This document shows positions 8,206 through 22,514 of a stretch of DNA of 23,679 nucleotides, one piece after another. Below the pieces are notes generated by a model that saw only the letters and a program-made list of their open reading frames with translations, made no database searches and was not told where the DNA came from. The DNA is from a virus: the IMG/VR virus record IMGVR_UViG_3300006108_000064, positions 1-23,679 of that record. One strand, written 5' to 3'. The translations under genes and the position numbers were made by a program. Position 1 is the stretch's first letter. The number at the start of each line of letters is the position of its first letter.

Positions 8206-10542
8206 ATGGGACAGTTTGCAAACAAGATAAGAGCCAAATTAGGTCTTGAACCAAAAAGAGATGTCACCTTGACGGGCAAGCTGCCCAATGAGGTTGTCAT
8301 CAATCGCGATATGAACGAAGAGATCAATCCAAAGACAGGATTGAATCCCTATGTTCTTGCTCCGGCTAGAATGAACGGACCAACAACCGGTCACGGCAAG
8401 CTGGTCGAGAAGATCAAGGATGTGGCCAAGCAAAACAATGCTCCTTACAATATTGTTCTGACTCGCACAAACGATAAGCCAACAGCCAGAAAGACTGGCA
8501 CAGCAATCAAGAATCCTTTGACACCAGAGCAAAAGCTAAATCATGCTCGTAAGTTCTTTCCTGGCTCAAACATCAATCTAGCTAGTCCTGAGAGACCAAA
8601 CCTACTCAGTCAAGCATCAGAGATTCACAAGATGGGACACAACCATCTTATTGTTGTTGCTGGTGCAGATAGAGTTCCAGAATATCAGCGTTTACTGAAT
8701 CAGTATAATGGCAAGGAAGGTCCTCACGGGCACTTCAACTTCAAGAAGATTGATGTTGTATCTGCTGGTGAAAGAGATCCAAATGCTACAGGTGTAGAGG
8801 GTGTTTCTGCATCAATGGCTCGTAAGCTCCGTGCTGATAATGACTACAAGACATTCCGTGAGCGAGTTGTTCCTCCTCATGTGGACGAAAAATCTGCTCA
8901 AGAATACTGGAACGATCTTGGTCATGGTATGGGATTGAATGAAGAGGCTGGCTATCCAGTTTCTGTTATTCCTACAAAGGGTGGTCGCAGCACTAGACCT
9001 CTGGTTGATCCTCCTATCGACGGAGAACCAGGTGATGTCGGATACGACACCGATCTGGACAAGGGTGATAAGACGAATCTTCGCCGCAGAAAAGCATACA
9101 AGCGTCTGGTTCAAGTTGGAATGAAGGAAGATTTTGACGATATTGCTCCAGGAACATATCCAGATTCTGTGAAGCCTTCAGCATTTGCTCCTACAGGAAC
9201 TCCTGTTCCAACGGTGAAGGCGAAAAAGACTTTTGGAAAAATCAGAGAAGGCATGTTTGCTGCTGATATCTCAAACGGAGATACAGGCGAAAGTGGTAGC
9301 CCAAACAACAGCGACATGTCAGTTCAGGGTGTTCCTGTTACCGCCAAGGAAACCAGTCTAAGAAAGACTGTGAAGAAGAGACTGGAAGAAGCCAAAGCCC
9401 ACCACGAAAGATCAAACCTTGAGACTGCTGGTGCAGGTCAAAGAGTCAAAGTTGACTATAATGGCAAATCCATCTATGGTAGAATACATAACTCACACGA
9501 GGGAAGTCATCAGATTGTTCTGGACGATGGCAGCCACATTTTTGTCAACAAAGATCACGACCATATAAAGGTTAGTATGGTCAAAGAATCTGCTGACTAT
9601 GCTGCTATGCATGTTGGTATTCCGACCAACAAGAACGACAATGATGATTCTCAAGAACTGAAACTACCTGAGACAGGTGGACTTCAGAGAGGCACCAAAG
9701 TCAAAATCAAGAAACCTGGTTACGAAGGTCATGGTAACATCGATTTTTTTGATAATGACAGCGGCAAGTATATTGTTTCTGTTCATGGCTATGGTCACAA
9801 TCTACATCTTGACAAGGACGATATTGAGGCTGTAAAGGAAGATTCTCCTTGCTGGAAAGACTATGAAATGGTGGGCATGAAAAAAGGAAAAAAGGGCAAA
9901 CCTGTTCCTAACTGTGTGCCAAAAAACGAAGAATATCTCAGTGACCGCGGCGCAGATTCCAAGGGGCTTTATCGTTCAACAGAATCGGGTGCTGGCCTAA
10001 CACGCAAAGGTGCCAAGCACTTTGGTATCAAGACTGCTGTAACCAGAAAGAATGTTGATCCAGATTCTGAAGCAGGCAAGCGTCGGAAGTCCTTCTGTGC
10101 AAGAATGTCTGGTATGCCTGGTCCTATGAAGGATGAGAAGGGTCGTCCTACACGCAAAGCCATGTCACTGAAGCGTTGGAGATGCAGAACGGAAGATGTC
10201 AAGGAATCTGCTGAGATAGAGAAGTCTGGACATGTTTATCACCATCATATTGTTCCCATGGGAAGATCAGAGGTGCTTAGAACAAAGCAACAGCTAAAGA
10301 GACTTCAGAAAAAGAAAGCCAATATTCAAAGTCATATCCAGAAGTTGACACAGGCAACACAGACTTGGCGCGAAAAGATGAGCGAGTCCAAGAATACTCC
10401 GTATGTTCGTCCACACACAGAAGCAGGCAGCACCAAACAGTCTGGCTGGAAGGCAAGCGACAAACACGGAAAAGTGAAGTATTTCGGAATGGATTTCAAA
10501 TCAGCCGCTGAGAGACATGCATATAAGGGTCAAGAATCATGA
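8206..10542 (+). CDS. Large fusion: HxGH-type nucleotidyltransferase domain plus SH3-like and DUF6321-like C-terminal modules
   Basis: A 778-aa multidomain protein starting at ATG 8206 (GAGGGAG upstream). Residues about 48-210 form a cytidylyl/NMN-adenylyltransferase-like Rossmann domain: ARMNGPTTGHGKLV (54-67) is the (H/T)xGH signature and GVSASMARK (199-207) corresponds to the ISxTxxR motif. The middle is a linker of acidic and Lys-rich segments. About 408-452 and 495-543 are two SH3/KOW-like beta modules (GQRVKVDYNGK..., RGTKVKIKKPG...). Next come a CWKDYEMVGMKKG...VPNCVPK motif (about 549-573) seen in many T4-like phages, and a basic region with SFCARMSGMPGPMKDEKGRP (about 625-644) as in DUF6321. 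The acid segments resemble cleavage linkers. The nucleotide substrate cannot be assigned. Confidence 0.75.
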   Translation: MGQFANKIRAKLGLEPKRDVTLTGKLPNEVVINRDMNEEINPKTGLNPYVLAPARMNGPTTGHGKLVEKIKDVAKQNNAPYNIVLTRTNDKPTARKTGTAIKNPLTPEQKLNHARKFFPGSNINLASPERPNLLSQASEIHKMGHNHLIVVAGADRVPEYQRLLNQYNGKEGPHGHFNFKKIDVVSAGERDPNATGVEGVSASMARKLRADNDYKTFRERVVPPHVDEKSAQEYWNDLGHGMGLNEEAGYPVSVIPTKGGRSTRPLVDPPIDGEPGDVGYDTDLDKGDKTNLRRRKAYKRLVQVGMKEDFDDIAPGTYPDSVKPSAFAPTGTPVPTVKAKKTFGKIREGMFAADISNGDTGESGSPNNSDMSVQGVPVTAKETSLRKTVKKRLEEAKAHHERSNLETAGAGQRVKVDYNGKSIYGRIHNSHEGSHQIVLDDGSHIFVNKDHDHIKVSMVKESADYAAMHVGIPTNKNDNDDSQELKLPETGGLQRGTKVKIKKPGYEGHGNIDFFDNDSGKYIVSVHGYGHNLHLDKDDIEAVKEDSPCWKDYEMVGMKKGKKGKPVPNCVPKNEEYLSDRGADSKGLYRSTESGAGLTRKGAKHFGIKTAVTRKNVDPDSEAGKRRKSFCARMSGMPGPMKDEKGRPTRKAMSLKRWRCRTEDVKESAEIEKSGHVYHHHIVPMGRSEVLRTKQQLKRLQKKKANIQSHIQKLTQATQTWREKMSESKNTPYVRPHTEAGSTKQSGWKASDKHGKVKYFGMDFKSAAERHAYKGQES

Positions 10543-10976
10543 TCGGCCTTGGCGACAAACTCAAGGTGGTATTAGCAGATTCATTTAGTTTTTATCTGAT
10601 CGCACACTATTGCCATTGGAATGTCGATGGTCCGGATTTCTATCAACACCACAAGTTTCTTCAGGATTTGTATGAAGAGGTTTATGATTCCATAGATTCA
10701 ACGGCTGAACATATCAGAACTCTTGACGAATATGCTCCTGGTAGTTATAAGAGATTCCAGGAACTATCATCTATTCAAACTATTGACACCATTCCTCTCG
10801 CTAGGGAAATGTTGAATATTCTTTTCAAGAACAACGAAGTGGTCATGAAGAATATTGTGGCTGCTATACAAGAAGCCGGCAAGGATCCAATGAATAAAGG
10901 CATTGAGAACTACCTACAAGACAGACTGGATGCACATAAGAAGCATCGATGGATGTTGAAGTCATTTTTGAGATAA
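10539..10976 (+). CDS. Dps/ferritin-like protein
   Basis: A 145-aa four-helix protein whose ATG 10539 overlaps the preceding stop (ATGA). It carries the Dps ferroxidase pattern: AHYCHWNVDGPDFYQHH...DSTAEHI. His26 and His38 are 12 residues apart and Asp53 and Glu57 follow, the same spacing as H51, H63, D78 and E82 of E. coli Dps. The position equivalent to Asp67 is Gln42, with Asp43 next to it. Length is slightly short of cellular Dps (about 160-170), with no Lys-rich N-terminal DNA-binding tail. Iron oxidation and storage or peroxide protection is the family role. In this late block it could protect packaged or incoming DNA. There is no obvious capsid-targeting start. Confidence 0.85.
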   Translation: MIGLGDKLKVVLADSFSFYLIAHYCHWNVDGPDFYQHHKFLQDLYEEVYDSIDSTAEHIRTLDEYAPGSYKRFQELSSIQTIDTIPLAREMLNILFKNNEVVMKNIVAAIQEAGKDPMNKGIENYLQDRLDAHKKHRWMLKSFLR

Positions 10977-14026: not shown

Positions 14027-14419
14027 ATGAATGAAAAATTGGATGAGGTGTCATTTACTCTTTATGCAGCCAAACATTATAACAATGCTGGCAGTCTTGA
14101 TACAGACGAGTTTTTCAATGACTTGAAGAGATTCAAATACCTAAAAAGATTATTCAATAAATATGAAGAAAATGGCGAACTAAAAGAACGATTGATACTG
14201 AATCACATCATTATTATTTACAATGTATTTGGTGTTACTCCTGCTACTAGAATGTTATTCTTTAGATTGGAAGAACACATGCGTTACTTGAAACCATTTC
14301 TGGAGTTTTTGGGTTATTTACCGAAAGAAGTCAAGAATATAGGATTTTTTGCTAAAGACATCAACTGTTATGACATAATGGGTGATGATAACATAAAGAA
14401 GGCGCTACAGGAACTATGA
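14027..14419 (+). CDS. Conserved T4-like phage protein, unknown function
   Basis: A 130-aa protein starting at ATG 14027, one base after the previous stop. It is helical and has a recognisable conserved core: FTLYAAKHYNNAGSLDTDEF, DLKRFKYLKRLF, and LKERLILNHIIIIYNVFG, followed by RMLFFRLEEHMRYLKPFLEFLGY. Proteins with this pattern are widespread in T4-like phages next to structural genes. I know of no function. The last codons overlap ATG 14416 of the next gene, which suggests translational coupling. Confidence 0.82.
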   Translation: MNEKLDEVSFTLYAAKHYNNAGSLDTDEFFNDLKRFKYLKRLFNKYEENGELKERLILNHIIIIYNVFGVTPATRMLFFRLEEHMRYLKPFLEFLGYLPKEVKNIGFFAKDINCYDIMGDDNIKKALQEL

Positions 14420-15951
14420 AGACGTTCAGACAATTCCATGAAGATGGCGTAGCAACTGGTGGAGCTATGGCGACAACAACCACTTCCGGCGGTCAAAGCC
14501 CAATCGAGAAGCAGATCAAAAAGAAAGCTCCAGCTTCTCTTGGTGCAAGACAGGGTCGCGTGCGCGAAGTAATGCCTGAAGAAACTCAGATTGACGAAAT
14601 GGGCGGCGATCAACACTATTCGGATACCAAAGGTGCTACATCGGGTGGTGGTAATGCAACACCAATTACTAGAAAGAAGATGGTTGATGATGCAGCAAAG
14701 ACTCTTCGTCGCGTAACTGATACAGCCAATATGGCTCCTGCTCCTGCTCGGACATTCATGACGAAGGAAGAAGCAGAACTTGATGAATCTCGTGGTTCTG
14801 ATTATGCGCTATATCATAAGTCATATACTGATGCGATTAATCATGCACTTGGTCATCATGGTAAGAGCGGCTTAACTGTATCTGATGATGATAGATTTCA
14901 TCACGTTGGTGTCATGTCAAAGAAGCCAAGTGAAGGTAATACAACTTCAGTAAATCTTCCTGCTACACACGCCACTACAGGCAAAAAACATACGATTCAT
15001 ATTCAGGTTTATAATAAAGGCGGTTCACATCCTTATGAATTGAATACATATTCTAGTGGTGTGGGAAGACATAATCAGAACGAAGAAGTAGATCTTGATG
15101 AAGACACTCTTGCTGCACAGAAAGAAATCGTCAAGGCTAACGCAACAACCAAAGGCGTTTCTGGTGCCGGAGATAATCCAGATAAGACTGTTCCTGTCTC
15201 TAAGCGACTTCAGAGAAAGATAGTTAGCAGAAACACCCGTCAAGGTGGCACAACAGCACCTCTTGTATCCAGAGCCAAGGCTGTAAGAGAAGCGAGAGAA
15301 GAGGTTCAGTCTCCACGCAAGATTGGCACAGTTGTTGGGTTCAAGCAGTTTGAGCGCGGAACCAAAGGTGGCGGACAGCCTGTTCCACCAGAATCTTTCA
15401 TGACAAAGGAAGAAGTCGAGCAGATCGATGAGTTATCCAGACTCATGATTATCAATAAACTTCTTAGGCCCATCAATAAACTGTCTCCCGAAGAACAGAA
15501 AAAACATGAACGTGCCAGAGCAGAGGCGGCCGCCAAACTGATCGGTCTGTCGGTGAAGATTCCTGCAACAGAAGAAGCCGAAATCGAAGAGATGGCTGGA
15601 GCCAATATGGATCGCCGCGCTCTCGTTTCTCATATCAAAAAGCAAGGATGGCAACAGAGATCAAGTGGAGCCAGCGGCGACCACGATGTATTTGAGCATC
15701 CAAAATCAACACACAAGATTGTCGTTCCTCGTCACAACAAACTAAAAGCGCCTCTTACTCTGAGTGTTCTAAAGAAGTCCAAAATCATGGACAGAGAGAT
15801 GGCAGAAGACACTCAGCGCGCACAGAAAGAAATCGTTGCCGCCAATGCCAAAACCGAAAAGAATCCTACGGGATTCGCAACACAATCACCTGAACCTGAT
15901 TTGATAGACCTTGAGAATGATCTTGTAAAGCTTACTAAAAAGAGGAAATAA
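14416..15951 (+). CDS. Polyprotein-like capsid-targeted protein with HicA-like domain
   Basis: A 511-aa protein starting at ATG 14416 (ATGA overlap). It begins MKTFRQFHEDGVATGG, a capsid-targeting match with Glu at residue 9. Five acidic cleavage-like linkers split it: ETQIDEM (56-62), FMTKEEAELDES (114-125), NEEVDLDED (222-230), FMTKEEVEQIDEL (329-340) and TEEAEIEEM (385-393). Between linkers two and three is a compact domain (126-221) that I do not recognise. Residues about 398-457 resemble a HicA/YcfA mRNA-interferase fold: RRALVSHIKKQGWQ, then SGDHDVFEHP with His423 at the catalytic-His position, HKIVVPRHNK, and LTLSVLKKSKI. A repeat, AQKEIVxANAxT, flanks modules (234-245 and 469-480). 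A head protein delivering processed domains is inferred, not shown. Confidence 0.75.
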   Translation: MKTFRQFHEDGVATGGAMATTTTSGGQSPIEKQIKKKAPASLGARQGRVREVMPEETQIDEMGGDQHYSDTKGATSGGGNATPITRKKMVDDAAKTLRRVTDTANMAPAPARTFMTKEEAELDESRGSDYALYHKSYTDAINHALGHHGKSGLTVSDDDRFHHVGVMSKKPSEGNTTSVNLPATHATTGKKHTIHIQVYNKGGSHPYELNTYSSGVGRHNQNEEVDLDEDTLAAQKEIVKANATTKGVSGAGDNPDKTVPVSKRLQRKIVSRNTRQGGTTAPLVSRAKAVREAREEVQSPRKIGTVVGFKQFERGTKGGGQPVPPESFMTKEEVEQIDELSRLMIINKLLRPINKLSPEEQKKHERARAEAAAKLIGLSVKIPATEEAEIEEMAGANMDRRALVSHIKKQGWQQRSSGASGDHDVFEHPKSTHKIVVPRHNKLKAPLTLSVLKKSKIMDREMAEDTQRAQKEIVAANAKTEKNPTGFATQSPEPDLIDLENDLVKLTKKRK

Positions 15952-19555: not shown

Positions 19556-19769
19556 ATGGTGGTCCAGATGGTGTAAGGCTCTTGGTGAACGGGTCAGTGA
19601 TTGTGATAAGGAAAGCGATAAGGTTGCTTGGGTTAGAACCTTTCTGATCGTGCAGGCCATCATCACAAATATTTTCATCGTAGCGAATTGTTTACACCAC
19701 TGGTTTGATCCTCCTCCAAAAACCATCATATATAAGACTGTGAGCGATAGCATTGAGGTAAATAACTAA
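19548..19769 (+). CDS. Small single-span membrane protein
   Basis: ATG 19548 (AAGGAAAA upstream) gives 73 aa, preferred to an upstream extension of the same frame that would overlap the previous gene. It has a Trp/Arg-rich start (MNRWWSRWCKALGER), an acidic stretch, one hydrophobic helix about 28-48 (WVRTFLIVQAIITNIFIVAN), and a periplasm-facing or cytosolic tail with DPPPKT. Its TAA overlaps the nrdA ATG (TAATG). It may be a phage membrane or exclusion protein; I do not recognise it. Confidence 0.68.
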   Translation: MNRWWSRWCKALGERVSDCDKESDKVAWVRTFLIVQAIITNIFIVANCLHHWFDPPPKTIIYKTVSDSIEVNN

Positions 19770-21220
19770 TGATTTTTGTAACTAAGCGTGATGGTAATAA
19801 AGAGCCTTTGAATATCGAGAAGATCCATAAGGTTGTAGGTTGGGCATGTGAAGGTCTAAGTGGAGTATCAATCTCTGATCTTGAGCATAATAGCCATTTG
19901 CAGTTTTATACAGGAATTACTACTTCTGCCATCCAGGAAACCCTGATCAAGGCTGCTGCCGATCTCATCTCCGAGGATGCTCCTAACTATCAGTATGTTG
20001 CTGGTAGACTGATCAACTATAACCTCCGTAAGGAAGTGTATGGTCAGTACGAGCCGATCTCTTTATGTCAACATTATGCTAACGTAGTTGAAGATGGGTA
20101 TTATGACGAATCATTGGCTGATGTATATGACGATGCAGACTGGTTCGAACTAGCCGAATATATTGACCATGACCGAGACAATCTTCTCACATATGCTGCC
20201 ATGGAACAATTTCGTGGTAAGTATCTAATCAAGAATCGCGTAACCGGTCAGTTCTATGAAACTCCTCAGATGGCTTTCATGCTGATTGCCATGACTCTCT
20301 TTCAGAACTACACCAAAGATCGACTCAAGTGGGTAAAGGAACTATACGATGCAATCAGCACTTTTGATATTAGTCTTCCTACTCCAATCATGGCTGGCGT
20401 CCGGACCCCTGACCGCCAGTTCTCTTCGTGTGTTCTTATTGAATCTGATGACTCTAGAAAATCAATCAGTGCAACAGCAGCGGCTATCGTAGAATATGTT
20501 TCAAACAAAGCTGGGATTGGTATTGGTGGCGGTCGTATTAGGGCTGCTGGATCTCCTATACGCAATGGTGCTACTGTCAGCACTGGTGTTGTTCCTTTTT
20601 GGAAGCATTTTCAATCTGCTGTTAAATCTTGTAGCCAAGGTGGTGTCCGAGGTGGAGCAGCGACACTCCATTACCCCCTTTGGCATTACGAAGTGGAGGA
20701 TCTTCTTGTCCTAAAGAACAACAAGGGAACTGAAGATAATCGTATTCGTCATCTAGATTATTCTGTTCAGTTCAATAAGGTAATGTATGAACGGTTGCTC
20801 TCTGGTGGAAATATTACTTTGTTTTCTCCAAGTGATGTGCCTGATCTTTATGATTCGTTTTTCGTTGACGTAGATAAGTTCAGAACTCTCTATGAGAAGT
20901 ATGAAAAGGATAAGAAGATTCGCAAGAAGGTTGTTCCTGCGATTGAATTGTTTTCTGCATTCATGCAAGAACGAAAGGATACTGGTCGTATTTATTTTAT
21001 GAATGTTGATCATGCAAACGATCATGGTTCCTTTATCAAGGATTTGGCTCCTATTCGTATGTCAAATTTGTGCCAGGAAATATGTTTGCCCACCACACCA
21101 CTGAAGGATATTCATGATGGTGGTCCAGTAGTCAAAACAATGAAAATGACTAAAGAAGAGTATCAAAAATATCTTGAATGGAAGAAAAATAATCTAAACA
21201 CCCCAATTAAAAGCAGATAA
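19769..21220 (+). CDS. nrdA: Ribonucleotide reductase large subunit, N-terminal part (fractured NrdA-a)
   Basis: 483 aa of class Ia ribonucleotide reductase alpha. The N-terminus is an ATP-cone-like segment (FVTKRDGNKEPLNIEKIHKV). Cys221 in FSSCVLIESDDS is the redox-active Cys equivalent to E. coli C225. NLCQE (433-437) holds the active-site Asn, thiyl-radical Cys435 and Glu, equivalent to N437/C439/E441. The chain then continues DGGPVVKTMKMTKEEYQKYL and stops at 21220, before the second redox Cys (C462), which is encoded downstream at 21498. The break is made by the GIY-YIG gene at 21251. The two chains must associate for activity, as reported for the mobE-split NrdA of Aeromonas phage Aeh1. 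Confidence 0.93.
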   Translation: MIFVTKRDGNKEPLNIEKIHKVVGWACEGLSGVSISDLEHNSHLQFYTGITTSAIQETLIKAAADLISEDAPNYQYVAGRLINYNLRKEVYGQYEPISLCQHYANVVEDGYYDESLADVYDDADWFELAEYIDHDRDNLLTYAAMEQFRGKYLIKNRVTGQFYETPQMAFMLIAMTLFQNYTKDRLKWVKELYDAISTFDISLPTPIMAGVRTPDRQFSSCVLIESDDSRKSISATAAAIVEYVSNKAGIGIGGGRIRAAGSPIRNGATVSTGVVPFWKHFQSAVKSCSQGGVRGGAATLHYPLWHYEVEDLLVLKNNKGTEDNRIRHLDYSVQFNKVMYERLLSGGNITLFSPSDVPDLYDSFFVDVDKFRTLYEKYEKDKKIRKKVVPAIELFSAFMQERKDTGRIYFMNVDHANDHGSFIKDLAPIRMSNLCQEICLPTTPLKDIHDGGPVVKTMKMTKEEYQKYLEWKKNNLNTPIKSR

Positions 21221-21222
21221 AG

Positions 21223-21250
21223 TATAAATGGTAGTGAGGAGAACACTACT
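21223..21250 (+). promoter_or_regulatory. Late-promoter box and ribosome-site-sequestering hairpin of the homing endonuclease
   Basis: TATAAATG at 21223-21230 resembles the T4 late box. It is followed by GTAGTG 21231-21236, loop AGGAGAA 21237-21243, CACTAC 21244-21249, and ATG 21251. The AGGAG ribosome site is in the loop of a perfect 6-bp hairpin. A late transcript starting about six bases after the box would lose the 5' arm and free the ribosome site. Confidence 0.65.
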
Positions 21251-21514
21251 ATGATTACACTATATGTTAAAACGCATAAAGTTACTGGACTTAAATATCT
21301 TGGTAAGACAGAACAAAATCCGTTCGAATACCTGGGTTCAGGGAAGAGATGTAAAAGAGAACTGAACAAATATGGTAAAGATATTGAGACAGAGATTCTA
21401 TTTCAATCTGATGATATATTAGAAATAAAAGAACAAGGGTTATACTATTCCAAATTATGGGATCCGGGGAATCTAGCAAAGCATTTAAGGAAACAAAATG
21501 GATTTCAAATATGA
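21251..21514 (+). CDS. GIY-YIG homing endonuclease inserted in nrdA
   Basis: An 87-aa GIY-YIG nuclease domain. The first strand TLYVKTHKVTGLKYLGKT carries the GIY...YIG equivalents (LYV and KYLG). An Arg/Lys-rich helix (SGKRCKRELNKYG) holds the catalytic Arg, and KEQGLYYSKLWDP holds the metal-binding Glu. No C-terminal DNA-binding region is present, so it is shorter than I-TevI or the phage Seg enzymes and may depend on other contacts or be truncated. Its end overlaps the start of the second nrdA piece by 17 bases. The A+T-rich composition contrasts with nrdA. There is no room for a group I intron, so it is a free-standing gene inserted in nrdA. Confidence 0.86.
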   Translation: MITLYVKTHKVTGLKYLGKTEQNPFEYLGSGKRCKRELNKYGKDIETEILFQSDDILEIKEQGLYYSKLWDPGNLAKHLRKQNGFQI

Positions 21515-22514
21515 AATTGTCGATAGTATCGACACTAAAGATAAGGAACATGTTTATGTTACAGAAGTTTTCGAATCTGATTGTAAATCAGAAATATCGT
21601 TGTGTACGTTAAGTGCAATCAACTGGGGCAAGATCAAGAAACCAAGCGACTTTGAGAAGCCTTGCACACTTGCGGTCAGAGCTTTGGATGCGCTTCTTGA
21701 TTATCAGTCTTACCCTGTCAACGCCGCTCGTATATCTACTCTTAATCGTCGCCCTCTGGGTGTCGGTATTATCAACTTGGCTTATTGGCTTGCTCGGAAT
21801 GGCAGTAACTATTCCGATCCGAATCTTGAATTGGTTCACGAATATGCTGAGGCATGGTCTTATTACCTTATCAAGGCTTCTGTAGATTTAGCAAAGGAAT
21901 CTGGTGTCGGTCCTTGTCCTAAACATACCGAAACTAGATATGGCGAGGGCGTAATGCCTATTGATACATATAAGAGAGAAGTTGACGAACTTATACCAAA
22001 TCCAGATTATAAAATGGACTGGGATACTCTTCGTGGGGACGCTTTTCTTTATGGTATTCGCAATTCAACTCTGATGGCTCTAATGCCTGCTGAAACGTCC
22101 GCTCAGATTTCCAACTCGACGAATGGCATTGAACCACCAAGAGCATTGGTGTCAGTAAAACAATCAAAGGACGGAACTCTGAAGCAGGTCGTTCCCGGTA
22201 TTGCTAAGTATAAGAACAAGTATGAACTTCTATGGGATCAAAAGTCACCAGAGGGTTATCTAAAGATTTGTGCTGTGCTTCAGAAGTTTATTGATCAGGC
22301 AATTTCGGTTAATTTCTCTTATAATCCAGCCCACTATCCAGATGGTAAAGTTCCTATGTCAGAACTTATTGGACATATGCTATCACACTATCGCTGGGGT
22401 GGAAAAACTGGATATTATTTGAATACCGCTGATGGTGCCGGAGAAATCAATCTTGGTGTACAATTAAGTTCTGATGGAATTGACGAAAATGATTGCGATT
22501 CGTGTAAAATATGA
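21498..22514 (+). CDS. nrdA: Ribonucleotide reductase large subunit, C-terminal part (fractured NrdA-b)
   Basis: 338 aa starting at ATG 21498, with AAGGAAA upstream inside the endonuclease gene. It carries the second redox Cys in ISLCTLSA (Cys36, equivalent to E. coli C462), RRPLGVGIINLAYWLA, the substrate-loop motif ALMPAETSAQISNSTNGIEP, the radical-relay tyrosine pair in GKTGYYLNT, and the C-terminal CxxC-K (Cys333, Cys336) that re-reduces the active site. All catalytic features missing from the first piece are here, so the split enzyme should be complete. The first 30 residues (YEIVDSIDTKDKEHVYVTEV) belong to the loop where the insertion sits. Its stop overlaps the next ATG. Confidence 0.93.
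   Translation: MDFKYEIVDSIDTKDKEHVYVTEVFESDCKSEISLCTLSAINWGKIKKPSDFEKPCTLAVRALDALLDYQSYPVNAARISTLNRRPLGVGIINLAYWLARNGSNYSDPNLELVHEYAEAWSYYLIKASVDLAKESGVGPCPKHTETRYGEGVMPIDTYKREVDELIPNPDYKMDWDTLRGDAFLYGIRNSTLMALMPAETSAQISNSTNGIEPPRALVSVKQSKDGTLKQVVPGIAKYKNKYELLWDQKSPEGYLKICAVLQKFIDQAISVNFSYNPAHYPDGKVPMSELIGHMLSHYRWGGKTGYYLNTADGAGEINLGVQLSSDGIDENDCDSCKI

Follow-up and report, generated by a model that had tools for sequence, protein, structure and literature searches.

HicA toxins are mRNA interferases (PF07927) for which a survey recognised 14 classes of genomic context, including HicB operons, HicB fusions, Viperin neighbours and an SMC fusion, and they have been discussed as bacterial weapons against phages (Gerdes 2024; PMC10865869). 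In bacteriophage T4, the prohead protease gp21 cuts after L/I-x-E, and the internal head protein IPIII depends mostly on residues 4 and 7 for targeting and on residues 8 and 10 for processing (PMC9026906). The polyvalent proteins of phages and conjugative elements are multidomain products that are believed to be delivered on invasion and then cleaved into separate units, for which processing by a built-in metallopeptidase has been proposed; HicA is unnamed in the main text of that study (Iyer 2017; PMC5512222). Here we describe open reading frame (ORF) 14416 of IMG/VR virus record IMGVR_UViG_3300006108_000064, a virus fragment of 23,679 bases that is referred to as the window. Its 511-residue product would be a T4-type internal head polyprotein with a HicA domain as cargo. 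In the open-access literature we found no paper that describes HicA in the virions of phages or a prohead protease that cuts cassette polyproteins.

We propose that this HicA domain is packaged into the phage head, released there by cleavage in the prohead and then injected to serve as an RNase effector, a reading that we consider probable, if only modestly so. Packaging and cleavage of the polyprotein are strongly inferred from sequence features, and ejection into the host is suggested by the T4 precedent. In the proposed mechanism, the N-terminus would direct the polyprotein to the prohead scaffold and a gp21-type protease would cut after L/I-x-E, freeing a basic HicA module from M393 that probably keeps its 53-residue tail. 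The freed module would stay in the head, enter the next cell with the DNA and, as infection begins, act on RNA there as a small RNase. An antitoxin would not be needed, the domain being held first in the polyprotein and then inside the prohead.

Identity and fold of the HicA domain

Residues 393-458 of the product are a true HicA domain. An earlier note, made from the letters of this DNA, had placed a HicA pattern at about residues 398-457, and profile searches bear this out. Pfam HicA_toxin (PF07927) matches residues 401-456 with 29.4 bits (E 8.8e-07) in the whole protein and with 33 bits (E 6.5e-08) in the domain alone, the curated cut-off being 27 bits, and PHROG 353 (‘toxin’) matches residues 396-457 (E 1.1e-09). 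The single-sequence match to solved HicA is weak (E 0.15), as would be expected if the resemblance were due to chance or to another small fold. We find this alternative hardly credible, since the PF07927 score exceeds the curated cut-off and HicA is the only family matched by the aligned variants, all 13 of which reach E 0.01 or better. A profile of these 13 phage variants also finds the solved HicA 4c26 (E 1.6e-05). The match goes beyond chance because 31 IMG/VR contigs carry this cassette, which is subject to purifying selection; 21 distinct contexts of it were obtained from IMG/VR contigs.

Comparison of a predicted structure with HicA had been named beforehand as a check, and it returned a HicA fold resembling the double-stranded RNA-binding domain (dsRBD), at moderate confidence: AlphaFold2, given four sequences, predicts a helix-strand-strand-strand-helix arrangement with a mean pLDDT of 66.6. 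The four best Foldseek chains are all HicA. The six best solved structures in VIA-align are likewise all of HicA type (Z 5.3-7.7 over 55-65 residues), with a gap to the next row at 3.9. A chance match was rejected on this ranking together with the 4c26 profile match, the 13 variants and the placement of the domain in 20 of 21 contexts described below.

Active site and possible function

The histidine that had been singled out as the candidate catalytic residue, His423, is the H of the motif G421-D422-H423. The Gly and His of G-x-H are invariant in the 13 aligned variants, and the motif is kept in all 21 distinct HicA contexts. In HicA of B. pseudomallei, a change of G22 or H24 in the G-x-H loop abolished toxicity, and 4c26 is the H24A mutant (PMC3969222); where the 13-variant profile has its conserved His, 4c26 has the Ala of a G-S-A loop. 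Between contexts the dN/dS ratio of HicA is about 0.07-0.14, indicating purifying selection, although dS exceeds 1 and the ratio is therefore imprecise. This conservation of the active site suggests that the domain may be an RNase.

The 68-residue HicA core has a pI of 10.8 and a charge of about +9, and the other cassettes of these polyproteins are not recognisable as enzymes. Both observations would suit a protein that is packaged and cut free but has no RNase activity, namely a basic, dsRBD-like internal protein that binds nucleic acid and either helps to pack DNA or coats the injected nucleic acid. We regard this as somewhat unlikely, since G-x-H is needed for toxicity and not for the fold (PMC3969222), yet is kept in 21 of 21 contexts. 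The same invariance bears on a decoy function, in which injected HicA would bind host HicB-type antitoxins or occupy their targets and so disturb HicAB defence. Such a role would fit the proposal that HicA modules are anti-phage (PMC10865869) and the general HicA surface kept in the cassette. However, a decoy has no need of the catalytic His, and binding HicB would free the host HicA and rather trigger defence, which makes this quite improbable.

If the injected HicA is active, as the preferred reading holds, phages would have turned a toxin round, delivering an RNase before any phage gene is expressed. As the earlier note had stated, no HicB-like gene is adjacent: PF15919 was not found in 28 related virus records, many of which are fragments and three of which are 155-214 kb long, and PF05534 was not found in 7 records. 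A toxin-antitoxin module was rejected, as no HicB was found in these records. Confinement in the polyprotein and then in the prohead could explain the missing antitoxin. When 50,697 phage records were searched by tblastn, the HicA cassette had no close relative from a cultured phage, the only matches being annotated free-standing HicA genes and weak matches, all below 60% identity. The full ORF had no match among cultured phages. A scan of GTDB contigs found no bacterial source of the cassette; it relied on short conserved motifs, which leaves absence unproven.

Predicted prohead-protease sites

The product contains five acidic L/I-x-E sites, ending at E61, E124, E229, E339 and E392, compared with 0.25 in shuffled sequence. 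The last of them falls in the EIEEM that was previously noted as the upstream boundary of HicA, and the motif does adjoin the domain, which starts immediately behind E392. In 20 of 21 contexts the residue just ahead of HicA is the Glu of [LIVMF]-x-E, against 2.7% for random positions in the same proteins, and the sole exception is L132. In that 155-kb contig (L132:4001-4468), HicA opens the ORF, and behind it comes LLSFSQFIAEAEYQ, a stretch similar to a T4 targeting sequence but lying behind rather than ahead of HicA. The neighbouring cassette of the window protein stands behind [LIVM]-x-E in all 34 of its contexts, against 15% for random positions. The contexts of a cassette are related to one another, hence these counts are not independent trials, yet the placement is striking. 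Behind HicA, a second site of L/I-x-E type occurs within 25 residues in 15 of the 21 contexts. Across all shared segments, 41% of ends lie within 10 residues of a site and 14% do so at random; this boundary test pools dependent pairs, and the cassette-specific tests are stronger.

Acidic interdomain linkers would also be rich in Glu, and cleavage is predicted from sequence. The acidic L/I-x-E stretches might thus be flexible linkers of an uncut multidomain protein, in the virion or the cytoplasm. This is unlikely, as the site that immediately precedes each HicA has L, I or V at P3 and, in most cases, D or E at P2, the motif is the same as the T4 gp21 rule (PMC9026906), and the scaffold protein gp22 of G005, the closest long relative of the window, bears such sites. 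Another gene of G005 (L017:10583-11380), upstream of gp21 in the region of T4 genes 67/68, encodes an EF-hand-like cassette with an EDLEDLDE site, and this cassette is also found in polyproteins of other contigs.

Predicted head targeting and gene position

The window ORF starts with MKTFRQF, where T4 IPI has MKTFKEF and both IPII and IPIII have MKTYQEFIAEA. Among the 1448 ORFs of the fetched loci, some of which overlap, 46 have a start resembling a capsid-targeting sequence (CTS), against 9 of 6857 internal Met residues. Two phages show exactly the T4-like order of targeting sequence, site, HicA and site, with MKSFTQFINEEVEILDE in L118 and MKTFKAFISEEVELLDE in L131 each followed by HicA and then a site, and in L087, L088 and L089 the neighbour cassette lies directly behind a CTS-like start.

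The gene order of L110 runs from tail sheath, tail tube gp19 and portal gp20 to the HicA polyprotein (719 aa), which is followed by a 135-aa protein, S77 prohead protease, scaffold gp22 and major capsid protein gp23; the place between genes 20 and 21 is that of the prohead core genes 67 and 68 in T4. An S77 protease and HicA share one contig in four records. G005 has gp21, gp22 and gp23, and its gp23 has the Glu-containing junction ALMEEAGQGG where T4 gp23 has SFLTEAEIGG. In the window, the slot comprises the DUF7207 gene, ORF 14416, a small ORF, a primase (assigned partly by order) and NrdA, which corresponds to gp159 (the DUF7207 homologue), gp160, gp161, primase and nrdA in the Synechococcus phage S-CREM2. 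There, gp160, the cytidylyltransferase gp154, gp155 and gp156 were detected in virions by mass spectrometry (PMC10665884). The capsid-targeted setting put forward in the earlier note is supported by the targeting sequences, the L/I-x-E sites, a homologue located where T4 has gp67/68, and a positional counterpart known from a published virion proteome. A T4-style late promoter, TATAAATA, was also considered and set aside, as it showed no excess over chance.

Several observations weigh against packaging, cleavage and injection of HicA. Residue 10 of the targeting-like sequence in the window is Asp, which at this position in T4 IPIII stops processing and leaves targeting intact (PMC9026906). The window fragment itself contains no gp21, and the confidence of the AlphaFold2 model of the HicA domain is only moderate. 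S-CREM2 gp160, the positional counterpart, carries no HicA, and its authors allow carry-over for some of the proteins detected in virions (PMC10665884). Finally, no obvious site lies behind HicA in the window protein, and therefore the released product would be M393-K511, with the 53-residue tail included.

Exchange of cassettes

The head-type polyproteins to which the window protein belongs form a family with many interchangeable cassettes, of which HicA is one. The earlier note's reading is partly supported: HicA identity and the head-cargo setting are well supported, but the note had missed both the polyprotein family and the exchange of its cassettes. Among homologues of the window protein, that of L002 has HicA with less sequence around it, that of L003 has a DUF6321 cassette where HicA would be, and that of L006 has the first ~110 residues in common with the window ORF and then another domain. 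Further ORFs that contain the HicA cassette are 1538 aa (L010/L011) and 709 aa (L013/L014) long. The longer of these (L011:1937-6553) combines HicA with a stretch resembling the metal-dependent phosphohydrolases of PHROG 990 and with DUF5824; the latter two stretches are possible further injected enzymes.

A different gene of L003 contains a stretch with 97% identity to the neighbour cassette of the window protein (residues 125-229), and each of the two copies starts and ends at E-E-x-x-L-D-E. Relatives of this cassette (RGSDYALYHKSYTDAINHAL...; L033-L092) occur in 60 loci, which makes it far commoner than HicA. AlphaFold2 predicts a confident small alpha+beta fold for it (pLDDT 80.8), and a fold search gave only cystatin-, PAS- and NTF2-like arrangements (Z 5.4 and below), with no clear relative. 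From residue 1 to about 247, the window ORF is similar to the L006 version as far as the end region of that version (AQKEIVKANA); its remainder, beginning at TTKGVSG, is similar to the L002 version. The window ORF therefore looks like a fusion of L006-type and L002-type alleles, which suggests that cassettes may accumulate by recombination between alleles.

More broadly, T4-like freshwater phages may build an arsenal of injected effectors from exchangeable, site-bracketed cassettes, with one targeting sequence loading several of them and the maturation protease freeing them. An active HicA mRNA interferase would be among the weapons, safe without an antitoxin through its confinement in the prohead. 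We offer this generalisation tentatively, rating it just short of probable. The cassette layout would also provide a sequence rule for finding injected effectors, namely a targeting sequence followed by domains separated by L/I-x-E, and many such candidates are now annotated as being of unknown function.

Other features of the window

Features of the polyprotein and its gene group are given in Table 1. A ferritin/Dps-like gene (10539-10976) lies inside this gene group, and such genes also adjoin polyproteins in L002, L003, L006, L010-L014 and L132. Downstream, NrdA, the large subunit of ribonucleotide reductase (19769-22514), is encoded by two ORFs that cover profile positions 1-222 and 213-523. 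The small ORF between the two pieces (21251-21514) is probably an intervening element, and no Rfam intron scored at its threshold. At the other end of the window, positions 314-718 encode the C-terminal part of a DnaB-like helicase behind an apparent intein end (...NDILTHNS); the L003 helicase is interrupted there too and contains an additional ORF. ARAGORN predicts an 84-base tRNA-Lys (anticodon ttt) at 2319-2402.

Table 1 Features of the HicA polyprotein and its gene group in the window
Feature	Position	Strand	Remarks
Head-type polyprotein ORF carrying the HicA domain	14416..15951	+	511 aa; five acidic L/I-x-E sites against 0.25 in shuffles
Capsid-targeting-like N-terminus MKTFRQFHED	14416..14445	+	Resembles T4 IPI MKTFKEF and IPII/IPIII MKTYQEFIAE
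Predicted prohead-protease site EETQIDE, cut after E61	14578..14598	+	Acidic L/I-x-E motif
Predicted prohead-protease site EEAELDE, cut after E124	14767..14787	+	97% identical cassette behind the site in another L003 gene
Neighbour cassette, residues 125-229	14788..15102	+	60 loci; always behind [LIVM]-x-E; AlphaFold2 pLDDT 80.8
Predicted prohead-protease site EEVDLDE, cut after E229	15082..15102	+	Acidic L/I-x-E motif
Predicted prohead-protease site EEVEQIDE, cut after E339	15409..15432	+	Acidic L/I-x-E motif
Predicted prohead-protease site EEAEIEE, cut after E392, adjoining HicA	15571..15591	+	[LIVMF]-x-E placement in 20/21 HicA contexts
HicA domain cassette M393-M458	15592..15789	+	Pfam PF07927 33 bits; fold; profile match to 4c26
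Active-site motif G421-D422-H423	15676..15684	+	G-x-H in 21/21 contexts
C-terminal tail D459-K511	15790..15948	+	Common to homologues without HicA
DUF7207 gene (PF23837), upstream, marker of the conserved gene slot	14027..14419	+	Homologue gp159 adjoins virion protein gp160 in S-CREM2
Cytidylyltransferase/DUF6321 multi-cassette protein, same gene group	8206..10542	+	S-CREM2 counterpart gp154 detected in virions (PMC10665884)

Comparison with known systems

The window protein shares the domain profile, the predicted fold and G-x-H with the HicA mRNA interferases of PF07927. In contrast to known HicA, no HicB was found for its domain, which forms no operon and lies inside a phage polyprotein, and none of the 14 surveyed context classes is a phage head protein (PMC10865869). 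S-CREM2 gp160 occupies the same gene slot, has a cassette layout with acidic L/I-x-E sites and is detected in virions, but it has other cassettes, lacks HicA and gives no direct sequence match to the window protein. Polyvalent proteins are the closest concept; the window polyprotein contains several cassettes and may be delivered and cut into units. For polyvalent proteins the proposed processing is built in, whereas the sites in the window protein point to cleavage in trans by a prohead protease. Scanned with Pfam and PHROG, the ORF gave HicA and neither a zincin-like metallopeptidase nor a MuF-type virion domain, which are common in the published set, although a diverged one could escape such scans. 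With the T4 internal proteins IPI, IPII, IPIII and Alt, the window protein shares, by resemblance, an N-terminal targeting sequence and the L/I-x-E rule, and the position among head genes is comparable in L110. It differs from them in having several exchangeable cassettes per protein and a cargo from a toxin-antitoxin family, of a kind not known among them. The window protein is therefore a combination of known kinds: a HicA domain, an internal head protein and a polyvalent protein.
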